Part shown: positions 12,231 to 55,741 of the stretch, piece by piece
Layout of the letters: each line of letters begins with the position of its first letter
How positions within the stretch are numbered: position 1 is the stretch's first letter
Assembly: GCA_017417025.1 (NCBI GenBank)
Contig: JAFPZY010000006.1
Location: 1 to 57,370 of the forward strand
Direction: 5' to 3'
Length of the DNA: 57,370 nucleotides
From: Paludibacteraceae bacterium
Lineage (GTDB): Bacteria; Bacteroidota; Bacteroidia; Bacteroidales; Paludibacteraceae
Translations under genes and position numbers: made by a program
Notes under the pieces: generated by a model
Databases searched by the model: none
Told to the model about the DNA's origin: nothing
The model's input: only the letters and a program-made list of their open reading frames with translations

Positions 12231-12285
12231 TATCTATCGTGTATCTATCGTATATCTATCGTGTATCTATCGTATATCTGTCGTG
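12231..12285. repeat. 11-bp tandem repeat, five units
   Basis: Five units of TATCTATCGTR run without gaps; the last base alternates G, A, G, A, G and the final unit has one change. It occupies the gap between ftsK and the LolA-like gene. The period is about one helical turn. Confidence 0.9.
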
Positions 12286-38737: not shown

Positions 38738-38792
38738 AACACAGGATTAACACAGGATTAACACAGGATTAACACAGGATTAACACAGCATT
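38738..38792. repeat. 11-bp tandem repeat, five units
   Basis: AACACAGGATT repeated five times without gaps; only the last unit differs (one base). Confidence 0.95.
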
Positions 38793-48247: not shown

Positions 48248-48338
48248 TCCCCGCAAAGGCATTTCTGCCGTTGCCGCCGCCCACCGGCGTTAAACAGAAG
48301 GACACAGATGCAGACAATGTAACACACACAAATTGCCG

Positions 48339-48770
48339 ATGAAGGACGAGATAGTTCTATATCAACCGGATGCGACGGTGAAACTTGAGGTGCGCCTGCA
48401 GGACGACACCGTATGGCTCAACCAACAGCAAATGGGGGAGTTGTTTGGTGTTAACAGGCAGGCTATTACGAAGCATTTAAGAAACATCTACGAGACCCAC
48501 GAGTTGGAAGAGCCGGCAACTTGTTCCATTTTGGAACTACTTCAAGTCGAAGGCAAACGCCGGGTACGCCGTGAGGTGGCGTTCTATAATCTTGATGCCA
48601 TTATTTCTGTCGGTTTCCGCGTGAACACTCATCGCGGCATCCAGTTCCGCCGTTGGGCGCCCTTTGCCACAAAAAAGCGACCGTGTATGCGGTCGCTTTC
48701 TGTTTGCCGTGTATGCGGGGCGTTTAGTCGTCCCAGACAACGGTTTGTGTCGAGTCGTCGTAGTTTCTGA
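48339..48770 (+). pseudogene. RhuM family protein, truncated at the phage-like block
   Basis: From ATG 48339 the product matches the RhuM N-terminus: 'VRLQDDTVWLNQQQMGELFGVNRQAITKHLRNIYE', read as the motifs VWLNQQQM and FGVNRQAITKHL, then 'REVAFYNLDAIISVGFRVN' and 'RGIQFRRWA'. After codon 107 (48659) the match stops; the frame runs on through a terminator and the antisense of the next gene to 48770. Full RhuM proteins have about 330 residues, so two thirds are missing. RhuM genes often lie in islands. Confidence 0.85.
48674..48699 (-). terminator. Terminator of the leftward phage-like unit
   Basis: Perfect 10-bp stem AAAGCGACCG/CGGTCGCTTT around TGTATG; the A run on the plus strand's left side gives the U tract for leftward transcripts. 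It lies only 15 bases from the RhuM break point. Confidence 0.8.
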
Positions 48771-49074: not shown

Positions 49075-49557
49075 TTAAGGTTTTAGGTTAGTGAAAAGTT
49101 GTTTGTACATGCGGACTTGCGGTCCGCTTTCGATGAGCGCCATTGCGTACAGTATTTGCGGCAGTTCGGAGCGTCGCAGTGTTTCGTTGCCGCCTTTGCC
49201 GGTGAGCCTGATGAGCGTGGCGATGTAGTTGGCGGTGTTGTTTTCCGACGGCGGTGCGAAGCGTGCGACGATGGAATTGATGGTGTGCAGCCCGTGGCGG
49301 TCGTAGTAGTTAAGGATGAGTTTCCAGGCCGCTCTCACTCCGTGCTGCATGGTGCGGAACTGCTCGAAGGAGCCGTCGGTGTTGGGTGTCACTTTGCCGA
49401 GCCACTTGTTGTCGGGGCTGATGCGGATGTTGAGGGGGTTATTGTTCCTTATCCCGCGTGTCGGCGTTGGGGGTGTTGCCGTGGCCGGATGCTTTTCCGA
49501 AGATGGCTGCAAGCACCCGGAAGACGAGTGCGATAATGGAGAAAGTTCTGCGTGCAT
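49075..49557 (-). CDS. Lysozyme/P5-like phage protein
   Basis: The core from residue about 34 reads 'TRGIRNNNPLNIRISPDNKW', 'FEQFRTMQHGVRAAWKLILNYYDRHGLHTINSIVARFAPPSENNT' (motifs FRTMQHGVRA and RFAPPSENNT) and 'YIATLIRLTGK', the pattern of phage structural protein P5/lysozyme-like proteins. The first 33 residues are low complexity and overlap, in another frame, a 41-residue membrane ORF, so the true start is uncertain: no other ATG lies near the core. Translation may restart from the overlapping ORF. Confidence 0.75.
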   Translation of the reverse strand: MHAELSPLSHSSSGCLQPSSEKHPATATPPTPTRGIRNNNPLNIRISPDNKWLGKVTPNTDGSFEQFRTMQHGVRAAWKLILNYYDRHGLHTINSIVARFAPPSENNTANYIATLIRLTGKGGNETLRRSELPQILYAMALIESGPQVRMYKQLFTNLKP

Positions 49558-50415: not shown

Positions 50416-50775
50416 ATGAAAGAAGAGATGTTAAGAAGACGGACTTTTACGAGTCCGGAGGAGGCGGAGCGCCTCCTGAAACTGGGTCTGCCGAGCAGCA
50501 CGGCGGACATGTTTTTCACCACGAACAAGTTGTTGGGGGGCTGGCACCCCCAGCCCGACGTGCTGCAGCAGCCTTTCGACGAGGAGCAGGAGGAGTTTCC
50601 GTCCATCCCGATACTGCCGTGCTGGAGCGGCCTGCGCCTCATAGAGATGGCGGCGGAGAACATGCGCACCGCAATGCGCGTCGTTCCGGACAAGAAGCAA
50701 CTGTGTGTAACAAGCGCGGTGGAGATGTTTGAAACGAAGCTGCGCGGCGAGGATTTCAGCAAATGGAAAGTATGA
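50416..50775 (+). CDS. Phage-type small protein, unknown
   Basis: A 119-residue cytoplasmic protein. It has 'PEEAERLLKLGLPSSTADMFF' at the N-terminus and 'SIPILPCWSGLRLIEMAAEN' in the middle. The 'LL.LGL...TADM' and 'P.LPCWS...L.EL' layout is common in small Bacteroidota phage and prophage proteins. No function known. It overlaps the HNH gene by ATGA. Confidence 0.7.
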   Translation: MKEEMLRRRTFTSPEEAERLLKLGLPSSTADMFFTTNKLLGGWHPQPDVLQQPFDEEQEEFPSIPILPCWSGLRLIEMAAENMRTAMRVVPDKKQLCVTSAVEMFETKLRGEDFSKWKV

Positions 50776-51191
50776 ACAGGCCCGACAACTTAACCGTGTG
50801 GCGCAGCATCAACGGCCTTCTGGTGAGCCAGTACGGAGCCGTAATAGGCAAAAAAGGCAGACTTGTGAACCAAATTCCGAACAATGGAAGGAAAAGGAGG
50901 TATTTAGCCATTGGTATCTGGATTCCGAAAGGTGTCGCTGCTGACCTTACTCCGAAACATGGAAGAGTAAAGAAGATTGCCGTTCACCGCCTCGTCGCCG
51001 AATGTTTCATAAGCCGCAAACGACGCTTCTGCGGATATAGCTGCGACCATATCGACAACAACCCCAATGACAACAGCATATTCAACCTCCAGGCTGTCAG
51101 CCGAAGCTACAACAGCCGGAAGGGAAACAGAACAATAATACAAACAAAATTACACTACTATGTCAGAAACAACGATTCTGCCCTGGGCTGA
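50772..51191 (+). CDS. HNH endonuclease-like protein
   Basis: About 139 residues from ATG 50772 (overlapping the previous stop; an ATG at 50763 is possible). 'KIAVHRLVAECFI' and 'CDHIDNNPNDNSIFNLQAVS' with 'NSRKGN' form the HNH_3-type core as in many phage homing or nicking enzymes. The N-terminal half resembles the NUMOD4-like reading head ('WRSINGLLVSQYGAVIG'). Its end overlaps the next gene by 32 bases. Confidence 0.82.
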   Translation: MNRPDNLTVWRSINGLLVSQYGAVIGKKGRLVNQIPNNGRKRRYLAIGIWIPKGVAADLTPKHGRVKKIAVHRLVAECFISRKRRFCGYSCDHIDNNPNDNSIFNLQAVSRSYNSRKGNRTIIQTKLHYYVRNNDSALG

Positions 51192-51672: not shown

Positions 51673-51790
51673 GCACACCGACCTGCTGGGGCTCCACCTC
51701 TACTGCAGGCTCCGCAGGCGGGCACTGCGCAAAGATGCCATTTGCACCCTGTGCAGAGACTTCGACCCGCACCGCAAAGATGCAACGTAA
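51626..51790 (+). CDS. Small Cys/His-rich protein, zinc-binding candidate
   Basis: A 54-residue ORF with 'FRCRHSTYKHTD' and 'CTLCRDFDPHRKD'; the C..H and CxxC pairs could hold one zinc. It overlaps both neighbours (47 and 11 bases), as usual in dense phage operons. Basic, so nucleic acid binding is possible. Confidence 0.5.
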   Translation: MTTEKYAFRCRHSTYKHTDLLGLHLYCRLRRRALRKDAICTLCRDFDPHRKDAT

Positions 51791-52628
51791 CTACCGCTAC
51801 ATGATCGACTCTTCGGAGCTGCACAGACTCGGACTGTGCGGCTCCGACGCGCTCGTCTATTCAGCTCTCGCCTCACTCTGCCACAAAAACGGCAGATGGC
51901 AAGTCAATTATTCCTTCCTCGCCGGGTTCTCCTGCGTCGGTGATAAAACCACTGCCTGGCGGATTGTGAAGAAGCTTGCAGGGCAGGGATTGCTTGCTGT
52001 TGAAACAAAAGACGGAAACAGCTATGTCTCTATTATCCGAAAGCCGTTGCAAAATGCAACGGAGTCATTGCAAAATGCAACGGAGCCATTGCAAAATGCA
52101 ACGGAGCCATTGCAAAATGCAACAAACACTCCTTATATAAAAAAAATATCCAGTAATATTAATAATATCCAAAAAGGTGGTGGTGTAAAAGGTTCCACCA
52201 CCACCGGCACCACCACCTCTTTTTCTGAAAATCCTGCTTCCGGCCTTCAACCTCCTGCTTTCGGTCAGTGGTGGCAGCTCTACGCCGGAGAAACACTCTG
52301 GCACGGACTCAAGATCCAAACCGAAAAAGAATGGAACACTCTCACGCCCGACGAGCAGAGGCAGGTCTTCAGCCATTCGCAGCTCTTTGCCCCCGCCAAC
52401 CGCAAACGCAAGTCGCCCAAACTGCCTAACTGGTATCTCATCGACCGCACCTGGCTCCAACCACTCGACAACATGTACACACCCGTCTTCCTCTCAGGAA
52501 TCGAACAGGACGAATGTCGCAAACTCGCTGTCCCCCTCGTGCAGGTACGCGCTCCCGACGGCACATACAGAATAATGCGCAAATCCGACGCAGAGCAATG
52601 CCGCATGCAAATAACCAGAGACTGGTGA
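51780..52628 (+). CDS. Replication-initiator-like winged-helix protein containing origin-like iterons
   Basis: From ATG 51780 the product has 282 residues. The N-terminal 85 residues form a winged helix ('LGLCGSDALVYSALASLCHK', 'GFSCVGDKTTAWRIVKKLAG'), like the DNA-binding domain of phage replication organisers. Residues about 90-118 are four LQNATE repeats, encoded by 21-bp units that each contain the palindrome TTGCAAAATGCAA. A linker follows, and then a C-terminal domain ('FGQWWQLYAGETLWHGLKI', 'LPNWYLIDRTWLQPLD') probably for protein contacts. Lambda O is built this way, with the origin in its own gene. A role in element replication is inferred. Confidence 0.7.
   Translation: MQRNYRYMIDSSELHRLGLCGSDALVYSALASLCHKNGRWQVNYSFLAGFSCVGDKTTAWRIVKKLAGQGLLAVETKDGNSYVSIIRKPLQNATESLQNATEPLQNATEPLQNATNTPYIKKISSNINNIQKGGGVKGSTTTGTTTSFSENPASGLQPPAFGQWWQLYAGETLWHGLKIQTEKEWNTLTPDEQRQVFSHSQLFAPANRKRKSPKLPNWYLIDRTWLQPLDNMYTPVFLSGIEQDECRKLAVPLVQVRAPDGTYRIMRKSDAEQCRMQITRDW
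52047..52122 (+). repeat. Four palindromic iterons, candidate replication origin
   Basis: TTGCAAAATGCAA is found at 52047, 52068, 52089 and 52110, exactly 21 bp (two helical turns) apart. Each is TTGCA, three A, TGCAA, a perfect inverted repeat. From 52131 to 52172 follows an A+T-rich stretch that could melt. Confidence 0.9.
52131..52172. other. A+T-rich tract next to the iterons (possible unwinding element)
   Basis: TTATATAAAAAAAATATC followed by TAATATTAATAATATCC, the most A+T-rich stretch in this gene, lies 9 bases after the last iteron. Confidence 0.5.
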
Positions 52629-52773
52629 GAAAAATGAAAAATGAAAAATGAGGAATATCAATTATCAATTATCAATTTCCCGTCAGCGGTTAAGTAGCGG
52701 TTAAGTAGCGGTAAAGTAGCGGTAATAAGTTAGGAATGAGAAATGAGGAATATCAATTATCAAGAATGAAGAT

Positions 52774-53043: not shown

Positions 53044-54243
53044 ATGGATACATTGATTAAGAAGCATGACAGGTTGTGGGAGATAACACCGCTGAATATT
53101 GTGCGGCAATGGGCACATAGTATCAACTGGGACGCTCGGCTGATGGCTATACGCGGGCCAAAAGGTGTTGGGAAAACCACCATGATGCGGCAGTTCATCA
53201 AGCAGCATTATGCGTATATGGACAGACAAGTGCTGTACGTGTCGTGCGATGACGCGTACTTTGCAACGCATAGACTTCTTGATTTGGCAGAACAATTCTA
53301 TCTGACCGGGGGCAAACACTTGTTCATCGATGAGATACACAAGTATGAGAACTGGAGCAGAGAAATCAAAGAGATATACGACAGTTATCCGACGATGAAG
53401 ATGGTGATTAGTGGTAGTAGTCTGCTGAGTATGACCGAAGGAGATGCTGATCTAAGCAGGAGATGTATCAACCATGACATCCAGGGATTGAGTTTTAGGG
53501 AGTTCCTACATTTCTACAAAGGGATAGAGATGCCGGTATATCCGCTGGAGGAAGTACTGACTAATCCGGCTCCGTTGATTCAAGAGATGAACAGCAAGGG
53601 CAGACCTGTGGCTATGTTCCATGAGTATCTGCGGTACGGGTATTATCCGTATTATCTGGACAACGAGACGGATTACTACATCGCCGTTCAGCAAGTAGTG
53701 AACCACACAATTGATGATGAACTGACAAAGATATGCAAGGTAGATGTGGGCAACACACGGAAGATAAAGGCTCTGATGACAATGCTGTGTGCAAGTGAAC
53801 CGTATCAGCTGGATATATCGAAACTGTCTGTTCAGAGCGGACTGAAACGGGAAACGGTTGTGGCTTATCTGAATTATATGGACAAAGCTAAGTTGTTGCA
53901 CCTGTTATACTGCGACCTCGTGAATGCAAAACGAATGCAAAAGCCTGATAAGATATATATCGACAACCCCAATATGCTATATGCGTGGGCAACCACGCCG
54001 GTGCGGATTGGGACAGCAAGAGAGACGTTTGTCGCAAACCAGTTGTCAGCCAAACATCAGGTGGAGTTCGGTAAAAAACATGGCGATTTCAAGATAGACG
54101 GGACATACACGATAGAGGTAGGCGGCGAAGACAAGAGCTTCAGCCAGATAGCCAATCTGCCTAACTCGTATGTGCTGGCAGACAATATGGAGACAGCTAT
54201 CGGGCATAAGTTGCCGATTTGGATTGTGGGATTCTTGTATTAA
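53044..54243 (+). CDS. AAA ATPase with DUF4143 domain
   Basis: The 399-residue protein has Walker A 'GPKGVGKTT' (residues 38-46), Walker B 'HLFIDEIHKY' (D96, E97), sensor 'MVISGSSLLS' and the arrangement 'LSRRCINHDIQGLSFREFL'. The C-terminal DUF4143 part has a winged helix ('DISKLSVQSGLKRETVVAYLNYMDKAKLL') and a nuclease-like fold ('RETFVANQL', 'FKIDGTYTIEVGGEDKS'). Such ATPases are common and mobile in Bacteroidota; their role is unknown, with defence or conflict suggested. The 5' leader holds spaced repeats, and a repeat copy precedes it. Confidence 0.88.
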   Translation: MDTLIKKHDRLWEITPLNIVRQWAHSINWDARLMAIRGPKGVGKTTMMRQFIKQHYAYMDRQVLYVSCDDAYFATHRLLDLAEQFYLTGGKHLFIDEIHKYENWSREIKEIYDSYPTMKMVISGSSLLSMTEGDADLSRRCINHDIQGLSFREFLHFYKGIEMPVYPLEEVLTNPAPLIQEMNSKGRPVAMFHEYLRYGYYPYYLDNETDYYIAVQQVVNHTIDDELTKICKVDVGNTRKIKALMTMLCASEPYQLDISKLSVQSGLKRETVVAYLNYMDKAKLLHLLYCDLVNAKRMQKPDKIYIDNPNMLYAWATTPVRIGTARETFVANQLSAKHQVEFGKKHGDFKIDGTYTIEVGGEDKSFSQIANLPNSYVLADNMETAIGHKLPIWIVGFLY

Positions 54244-54856: not shown

Positions 54857-55741
54857 ATGAAAGAATATATATCCGTCACGCAGTTTGCCGAAAAGTACGG
54901 CATTAGTGAGCGTACTGCACGTAATTATTGCGCGGCAGGGAAGATTGACGGTGCCTTTCTGACAGGCAAGACATGGAACATCCCTGCGGATGCGGACCTG
55001 CCCAAGAAAGGCAAGAAGAAACTCTCTCCGCTGCTCACCCGTCTGCGCGAGGAGAAAGACTCCCACCTGAAGGGCGGTATCTACCATCGTACGCAGATTG
55101 ATCTGACCTACAATTCCAATCATATCGAAGGCAGCAAACTGACCAAAGAGCAGACACGCTTTATCTTCGAGACCAACACACTTGGTGTCACGGCCGAAAA
55201 CACGTCGGTCGATGATATCATGGAAACGGTGAACCACTTCCGTTGCATCGACTATATCATCGACCACGCGACGGATAAAATCACCGAGGCACATATCAAA
55301 ACTTTGCACGCCATCCTGAAAGCAAACACCTCCGACAGCCGCAAACCGTGGTTTGCCGTGGGCGGTTACAAACGCCTTGCCAACCAGGTAGGCGAACAAC
55401 AGACGGTCGCGCCCAAAGATGTTCACCGCCACATTAAAGCCTTGCTTTCCGACTATAACGCGCTCAGGCAAGCGACATTCGACGATATATTGGACTTCCA
55501 CGTGCATTTCGAGCGTATCCATCCTTTCCAGGACGGGAATGGTCGTGTGGGGCGCTTGTTGCTCTTCTGGCAATGTCTGCAAAGCGGTGTCGCGCCTTTC
55601 ATCATCACAGAAGACTTGCGGTTGTTCTACTATCGCGGCATTCAGAACTGGGGGCAGACCAACGGCTGTCTCCGCGACACCTGCCTCACCGCACAAGACC
55701 ATTACAAAGCGTTGTTGGACTACTTTAAGGTGAAATACTAA
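54857..55741 (+). CDS. Fic family protein with N-terminal helix-turn-helix
   Basis: The 294-residue protein begins with a MerR/excisionase-like helix-turn-helix ('TQFAEKYGISERTARNYCAAGKI'). The inhibitory helix motif 'SNHIEG' (S87...E91-G92) follows, and then the Fic core with the catalytic loop HPFQDGNGRVGR (residues 222-233). Fic enzymes transfer AMP (or related groups) to target proteins; the intact inhibitory motif places it in the class with intramolecular inhibition. Target unknown. It shares its upstream 123-bp segment with the ATPase gene. Confidence 0.92.
   Translation: MKEYISVTQFAEKYGISERTARNYCAAGKIDGAFLTGKTWNIPADADLPKKGKKKLSPLLTRLREEKDSHLKGGIYHRTQIDLTYNSNHIEGSKLTKEQTRFIFETNTLGVTAENTSVDDIMETVNHFRCIDYIIDHATDKITEAHIKTLHAILKANTSDSRKPWFAVGGYKRLANQVGEQQTVAPKDVHRHIKALLSDYNALRQATFDDILDFHVHFERIHPFQDGNGRVGRLLLFWQCLQSGVAPFIITEDLRLFYYRGIQNWGQTNGCLRDTCLTAQDHYKALLDYFKVKY

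Follow-up and report, generated by a model that had tools for sequence, protein, structure and literature searches.

Replication origins made of repeats inside the initiator gene are already known from lambda, SPP1, TP901-1 and pSK41. In lambda, four iterons in the middle of gene O are bound by dimers and adjoin an A+T-rich tract of about 40 bp (PMC5043065, PMC7466680). The RepA_N gene rep of pSK41 is described as carrying four Rep boxes in its centre and encoding a winged-helix (wHTH) N-domain, and in pSK41 and pPR9 semi-palindromic direct repeats converge on a poly-A tract (PMC5703833, PMC7145576). pPR9 is reported to be pSK41-like, with the block of N-domain and origin swapped for one of the phage-type HTH_36 (pfam13730), and it replicates (PMC5703833). 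SPP1 gene 38 (oriL), TP901-1 ORF13 and Tuc2009 ORF16 encode origin-binding proteins that bind direct repeats in their own genes, and SPP1 oriL and the organizer-gene repeats of TP901-1 and Tuc2009 are described as origins (PMC6316719, PMC8965321). In the PLE satellites of Vibrio cholerae, the DNA-binding domain of RepA and the origin covary, and only cognate pairs are reported to replicate (PMC8263062).

Here we analysed 57,370 nucleotides from a Paludibacteraceae bacterium (this whole stretch is called the window), in which an original prediction had placed a lambda-like origin inside a replication-initiator-like gene. What is new is the Bacteroidales setting, the fixed 21-bp geometry and a rule that links one residue of the initiator to one base of the iteron. 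The coupled diversification of helix and iteron, together with this rule, is the most interesting part.

Iteron array and predicted protein in the window

The palindrome TTGCAAAATGCAA was found in four exact copies with start-to-start distances of 21, 21 and 21 bp inside the gene (Table 1), just as had been predicted, and no fifth copy was found in the window even at one mismatch. Shuffled windows were expected to hold 0.11 copies, and four copies were reached in 0 of 100 shuffles. In the 2.18-Mb genome that contains the window, exact copies were limited to these four, and the reversed control pattern gave 0. The iteron is a 5 + 3 + 5 palindrome (TTGCA-AAA-TGCAA) with symmetry confined to the arms, and the array read in frame encodes LQNATES-LQNATEP-LQNATEP-LQNATN, which confirmed the translated LQNATE repeat linker. 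The A+T-rich tract expected after the array was also present, and 40-mers as A+T-rich as that at 52133 make up 0.017% of the window 40-mers, but it begins about 10 bp past the last copy and thus not quite at once as had been stated. An inverted repeat (GGTGGTGGTG/CACCACCACC) abuts the tract; its single strand folds with -14 kcal/mol, and it could be a priming or loading hairpin. We also saw 11-bp tandem repeats at 12231-12285, 38738-38792 and 52685-52723 of the window, and one of these, AGCGGTTAAGT, lies shortly 3' of the initiator gene.

Table 1 Features of the initiator locus (positions in the window)
Feature	Position	Strand	Basis or remark
Endolysin-like gene	49075..49557	-	phrog_873, 1.2e-39
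HNH endonuclease gene	50763..51191	+	Pfam/PHROG; frequent upstream neighbour of initiator
Replication-initiator-like gene (282 aa, 849 bp)	51780..52628	+	ORF and profile matches
N-terminal winged-helix domain, aa 1-88	51780..52043	+	AlphaFold2, alignment A1, PDB wHTH matches
Recognition helix, aa 56-68 (K56 T57 T58 A59 W60 R61 ...)	51945..51983	+	AlphaFold2 and covariation
Iteron 1, TTGCAAAATGCAA	52047..52059	+	exact match
Iteron 2, TTGCAAAATGCAA	52068..52080	+	exact match
Iteron 3, TTGCAAAATGCAA	52089..52101	+	exact match
Iteron 4, TTGCAAAATGCAA	52110..52122	+	exact match
A+T-rich tract, 87.5% A+T	52133..52172	.	presumed unwinding element
Inverted repeat, stable ssDNA hairpin	52171..52222	.	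folding, z -4.0
C-terminal region	52287..52625	+	AlphaFold2 model; role inferred

The likely start of the gene is the ATG listed in Table 1, and a further in-frame ATG lies upstream at 51735. The AlphaFold2 model bore out the predicted winged-helix N-domain on one side of the repeats and a separate C-part on the other: pLDDT blocks were about 59-82 across aa 11-85, the C-terminal region was confident over aa ~240-282 alone, and a low-confidence linker separated the winged helix from the C-part, which presumably recruits replication proteins. The best PDB alignments of the wHTH domain were the transcription factors RbkR and CRP. In the PHROG scan, the window protein matched phrog_270 “replication initiation protein” (E 2.6e-8).

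Relation to lambda O and other initiators

The lambda ori (J02459) and the window both have four iterons inside the initiator gene and an A+T tract of about 40 bp; the iterons lie between the domains of the initiator, as in the lambda type, and the adjoining tract is also found at the genus loci described below. The lambda core is similar (CCTCAAAACGAGG, CCTCAAATTGGGG), but the lambda iterons start 20, 24 and 23 bp apart, the C-terminal region is another one, and a P-like gene, present in lambda, was not recognised among the neighbouring ORFs scanned.

By sequence, the protein does not fall into the Pfam family of lambda O. The window protein had no match to PF04492 (Phage_rep_O) in the Pfam scan, whereas lambda O itself matched at 5.7e-36, and hhalign of profile A1 (nine N-domains, see below) against lambda O gave a probability of 0.2%, hence N-domain homology with lambda O by sequence is not claimed. 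The O-like profile phrog_678 matched lambda O (1.7e-35) and, among the relatives of the window protein, L078 (4e-9), L339, L341, L177 and others, but not L111, and it is not listed for the window protein. The best Pfam family of the window protein was HTH_36 (PF13730, E 0.007), under the curated cut-off of 25 bits (16.6 for the whole protein, 19.9 for the N-domain); 6 of 9 A1 members matched it at E up to 0.1, and a distant relative, L153, exceeded the cut-off (32.8). At E up to 0.1, RepA_N (PF06970) was absent from the families of the window protein and, for the other A1 members, from the best 25 of 27 families. The window shares with pSK41 and pPR9 the central repeats in the initiator gene and, by prediction, a wHTH N-domain, and the Firmicutes phages SPP1, TP901-1 and Tuc2009 are likened to it by their descriptions, not by alignment. 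It seems more apt to place the protein in a separate subfamily of intragenic-iteron initiators than in Phage_rep_O.

Array geometry in the host genus

When 61 relatives were searched for the window protein, 9 genomes had matches, its own included. There were 11 places besides the window; 8 of them were genes with the N-domain, and all 8 had in-phase iterons. At the remaining three, L012, L013 and L014 (the last in the own genome, C54), a separate ORF of about 113-151 aa matched just the C-terminal region. Profile A1 was then used; all of its nine seeds have iterons and three (L038, L055, L078) came from a pattern scan, which makes this step biased. At E up to 1e-3, the profile matched 62 of 178 genus genomes, and in the order sample 4 of 393 genomes, three of these in the genus. 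At E up to 1.1e-9, there were 50 places in 37 genus genomes including the own one, so the N-domain family is common in the genus.

We merged 67 domain rows (E up to 1e-10) by identical domain plus iterons into 46 combinations, and 42 of these had at least two in-phase CAAAWYG iterons directly 3' of the domain, with the pattern NNN-CA-AAW-YG-NNN at the same place in the gene. The 21-bp spacing, for which a comparison of homologues had been proposed, was kept in 105 of 119 adjacent spacings, and three or four core copies were present in 39 of the 46 loci. The exceptions without two in-phase iterons were L295 and L286 (core at other spacings), L303 (contig end) and L304 (diverged sites); the fragment L305 was too short to be analysed. 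The contigs of L006, L007, L008 and L015 stop no more than about 150 bp from the match, inside the gene or shortly past it, so the copies are probably under-counted.

In 41 of the 42 loci (L008 was left out as too short), the 50 bp after the last in-phase iteron had a mean A+T of 0.71 (0.54-0.86) and the next 50 bp 0.46; the first value was the higher one in 40 of 41, and all 41 had a 40-mer of at least 72.5% A+T beginning within 45 bp of the array. This bears on the reading that the sites are operators or copy-control (handcuffing/incompatibility) sites, bound by the wHTH protein so that its own gene is repressed or the copy number restricted, and that replication starts elsewhere or not at all. 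The alignment of the wHTH domain with transcription factors would fit such a role, and so would the neighbouring ORFs scanned, among which no helicase gene was recognised. However, the intragenic position beside an A+T-rich stretch at nearly all loci, the matches to replication-protein profiles and the precedents of like anatomy, which are origins, argue for an origin, and we regard operators as unlikely.

Several other observations were made on these loci. In many loci of the main clade (L010, L015, L016, L007 and others), two C-runs, as in CCCCCCTAATAACCCCCCTATTA, stand between the last iteron and the A+T tract; they resemble a direct repeat at the unwinding site and are absent in the window. 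The loci L259, L260 and L010 have identical N-parts; their frame closes within the A+T tract and, as seen in L259, an internal ATG opens the C-part in a different frame. The weaker matches L306-L326 and L258 were kept out of the residue-to-base counts; of 36 places weaker than E 1.1e-9, 20 were examined and 16 left out. L321 has the motif, nine small regulator-like ORFs (L307, L308, L310-L312, L314-L316, L318) have no such motif, and others bear different palindromes. In the distant genes L309, L313, L319, L320, L322-L326 and L306, these palindromes, seen by eye, are mostly about 21 bp apart, for example GAAC-AAAAAT-GTTC (L319), CCGTA-N8-TACGG (L324) and GCTGA-N5-TCAGC (L323). Are they other dimer geometries of the same design?

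Covariation of the palindrome arms

For the analysis of the arms, the iteron was written as n1n2n3-CA-AAW-TG-n3'n2'n1', and consensus arms were scored over 32 helix types of the genus. The outer arms vary between loci yet remain complementary: n1, n2 and n3 were paired in 24, 31 and 25 of the 32 types (shuffled 11.7, 11.1 and 9.6), and the total agreement of 80 compares with a maximum of 52 in 20,000 shuffles. Thus, the arms of homologues change in a coupled fashion and keep the palindrome beyond the shuffled expectation. A protein-blind scan of viral contigs gave at least 120 stretches; among the matches listed, n2/n2' was constant over three repeats in 74, and 55 of these were complementary against 20.8 expected. 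The same scan of the genome collection gave at least 117 stretches, with n2 complementary in 22 of 64 against 17.1 expected among the matches listed. The palindrome signal is therefore strong in viral contigs and weak in genomes, and the stretches from the genome collection are taken to be mostly chance repeats. Four further viral scans, each specific for one base, gave 28 stretches for G, 11 for C, 9 for T and 13 for A.

An expansion of a heptapeptide linker, with the DNA palindromes as an incidental result, could also produce such repeats, and the motif is indeed read in one frame in 40 of 42 genus loci. Against this stand the arms, which covary as palindromes above chance, and the frames used outside the genus. 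Counted over 47 helix types whose arms were mostly paired, the sense frames were used 34, 1 and 3 times and two antisense frames 8 and 1 times, so that the motif occupies five of six reading frames; the iteron thus appears to be maintained as DNA, with translation free to change. In addition, agreement between adjacent repeats (106 pairs) was 0.34-0.65 in the spacers and 0.75-1.0 at the 13-mer positions, the core of which was in the search pattern. We consider a mere expansion of the peptide extremely improbable.

Helix residue x3 and the middle base of the arm

The recognition helix was aligned as x2-x3-T-x4-x5-R, where x3 is the residue preceding the conserved Thr (of the 42 loci, 39 have this Thr, two have Ser and one has Val). 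In the window protein, x3 is T57. Within the genus, x3 predicted the middle arm base n2 in 31 of 32 helix types: D/E went with C (5/5), K with G (4/4), H with G (1/1), M with C (7/8, the exception having A), and P, S, T, Q, V and Y with T (14/14). This grouping of residues was made post hoc, and the permutation tests were run with ungrouped residues. The mutual information of x3 and n2 was 1.49 bits against 0.63 shuffled (p 5e-5), and the coupling held with shuffles inside clades (p 6e-5) and in coarser strata (2e-4). The main clade, defined by single linkage at 70% identity outside the helix, contains 23 loci with 14 helix types. The identical iteron TTGCAAAATGCAA is common to the window and L302, in which x3 is Ser.

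To leave the genus, six genus or near-genus loci were set aside from 237 listed stretches, and 71 of the remaining 231 had the helix motif in an overlapping ORF. This gave 56 unique helices, of which viral contigs supplied 46 and genomes 10; they were located by a simple motif, so some may be misassigned. Among the stretches listed, G accompanied K/R in 18 of 22 helices and other residues in 4 of 34 (Fisher p 1.6e-7), and D went with C in 2 of 2; the exceptions were K with C in L123/L163, L244 and L249 and R with C in L167. Of the further single loci, L335 (D, C), L345 (R, G) and L366 (R, G) fit, and L333 (A, G) has G without a basic residue. As a general rule, “other residues go with T” had to be rejected: outside the genus, 32 such cases among the stretches listed had T in 12, A in 9, C in 7 and G in 4. 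Associations of x2 with n1 (p 0.0014) and of x3 with n3 (p 0.0006) also passed the threshold for 15 tests, but they were given no weight because x2-n1 mismatches CRP-like docking.

In CRP, base contacts are described for Arg180, Glu181 and Arg185 (PMC12531629), and Glu181 contacts the cytosine and Arg185 the guanine of the G4:C4 pair in the half-site TGTGA (PMC11253593). When R180-E-T-V-G-R185 of CRP is aligned with x2-x3-T-x4-x5-R, the contact of Glu181 with cytosine corresponds to x3-n2, together with the invariant Arg; this correspondence is one of motif alignment, not of structurally superposed residues. The arms of the E type (TCACA/GCACA) are similar to the CRP half-site TGTGA on the opposite strand. 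However, the half-sites are everted (TCACA-N3-TGTGA here, TGTGA-N6-TCACA in CRP), and the contact of Arg180 with G2 is not mirrored by the x2-n1 association, so that the CRP mode of docking does not simply apply; CRP is moreover a regulator and not an initiator.

On balance, the evidence tips somewhat in favour of the view that phage-type initiators in several bacterial phyla read intragenic iterons by this x3 rule (acidic to C, basic to G, and within the genus C for Met and T for most other residues), with the contact being that of CRP Glu181, and that at least 32 types have co-diversified in one genus, 14 of them in one clade whose domains are closely similar. With so many co-diversified pairs of helix and iteron, origin specificity could become predictable from sequence. 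Diversification may be driven by conflict between co-resident elements or by origin-cutting nucleases, an HNH gene being a frequent neighbour. We also asked if co-resident copies avoid a shared specificity; 0 of 14 pairs shared one against 0.95 expected, which was not significant (P 0.36) and is given no weight. Compared with the PLE satellites, where the origin is intergenic and two specificity groups are found among five PLEs, the genus has 32 helix types and a residue-to-base rule.

Named phages and wider distribution

The whole window protein had no close relative among viral contigs, phages and plasmids, and one genus relative searched against viral contigs had none either. A tblastn search with L184, a relative from a viral contig, gave 181 phage records, 16 of them Bacteroides phages. 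In the Bacteroides phages B124-14 and Barc2635, TTGCAAAATTGCAA and TTGCAAAATGCAA overlap each other within such a gene, and its linker contains a 22-bp repeat. We found no publication that calls an array of the B124-14 type an origin or gives a helix-to-base rule, among titles and abstract openings that covered few subscription papers. The original prediction knew of no described case in Bacteroidota; this has to be qualified, as these two named phages have the sites in such a gene.

Altogether, seven phage and plasmid records were examined. TTGCAAAATTGCAA and GTGCAGAAATGCAC occur in the initiator gene of a Flavobacterium phage, the product of which matches lambda O (2e-8) over a C-terminal stretch of 54 aa. 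The CAAAWTG sites of a staphylococcal phage and a Levilactobacillus plasmid are irregularly spaced, and a clear array was absent in Pseudomonas phage AF and a Geobacillus phage. The named phages L341-L343 have a recognised neighbouring gene of the helicase, loader or primase type, unlike the window. The profile phrog_678 matched 85 of 395 genomes of the phylum, and three CAAAWTG palindromes, 21 and 42 bp apart, were present in one (L366) of 30 “O-like” loci examined. The intragenic-iteron class, as judged from these repeats, is therefore widespread yet far from universal.

Surroundings of the gene

Upstream of the initiator gene on the same strand are a 119-aa ORF of no assigned family, the HNH gene and a 170-aa ORF; the opposite strand carries the endolysin-like gene and a weak holin candidate (E 0.057). 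An AAA_14/DUF4143 ATPase gene lies at a distance of about 400 bp downstream. No helicase, helicase loader or primase was recognised in 9 neighbouring ORFs with Pfam and 5 with PHROGs, scans in which small or divergent loaders can be missed, and no integrase or capsid gene was found among the neighbouring ORFs scanned. The stretch beside the element is rich in mobile genes: a RhuM-like ORF, apparently truncated (48333-48770), the ATPase (53044-54243) and a Fic protein (54857-55741).

In the genus, a gene of the HNH family lies upstream on the same strand at 39 of 57 loci, a count in which some places appear twice and many contigs end nearby. The annotated order is HNH, initiator, primase/helicase in Pseudomonas phage AF (L342) and HNH, replication protein, ATP-binding protein in the Levilactobacillus plasmid (L344). 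Two PHROG scans, covering 20 ORFs near two relatives from the genus, showed that HNH and phrog_1086 adjoin the initiator, with no phage structural genes except a weak tail-fibre match (E 7e-4). This gene order, the phage-like neighbours and the lack of a recognised helicase, primase or loader make the locus look like a phage-derived replication module, perhaps a remnant.

The window copy may even be a dead remnant of a prophage or satellite, with a former origin, as would suit the scanned neighbours devoid of helicase, primase, integrase and capsid genes, the RhuM-like ORF that looks truncated and the lysis genes adjoining in opposite orientation. The intact ORF with its four identical iterons and the frequency of the N-domain family in the genus speak against this. 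A dead copy seems possible to us, though on the less probable side, and it would be compatible with the origin reading.

Proposed mechanism and meaning

The unique exact repeats, the phrog_270 match, the genus arrays, the covariation of the arms and of helix with base, the link of K/R with G outside the genus, the correspondence with the CRP contact, the A+T tract and the known precedents all point to a phage-type initiator with the origin inside its own coding sequence, which we consider highly probable. The lambda-like intragenic origin of the original prediction is in this way supported by the spacing, copy number and coupled arms in the genus. What counts against it is that no helicase, loader, primase, integrase or capsid gene was recognised among the neighbouring ORFs scanned, that one of 30 “O-like” loci had the palindromes, that two of the seven named relatives have no clear array and two have irregular ones, and that palindromes were hardly enriched in the scan of the genome collection.

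In the mechanism that we propose, the N-terminal winged helix would bind each 13-bp palindrome as a dimer, with one recognition helix per half-site TTGCA and the AAA centre between them, as the statistical coupling of helix and half-site suggests. By analogy with lambda, the 21-bp phasing, about two helical turns, would place four dimers on one face of the DNA in a bent nucleoprotein complex, which may melt the adjoining 40-bp A+T tract. The C-terminal domain, on its flexible, iteron-encoded linker, would recruit a helicase or primase. As the same gene holds the lock and, some 100 bp away, the key, both would stay together when specificity changes. The element would be phage-derived, with HNH and endolysin-like genes near, and may be a remnant.

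The published intragenic origins that we found are single cases, whereas one genus here offers a natural series in which helix and target change together. Some members of this series differ little in scaffold, and the rule extends in part to other phages. The specificity of phage and satellite initiators can thereby be predicted, and natural proteins and sites are at hand to test it. A reason for the location of origins inside initiator genes is suggested as well: matched specificity would be inherited as one block.
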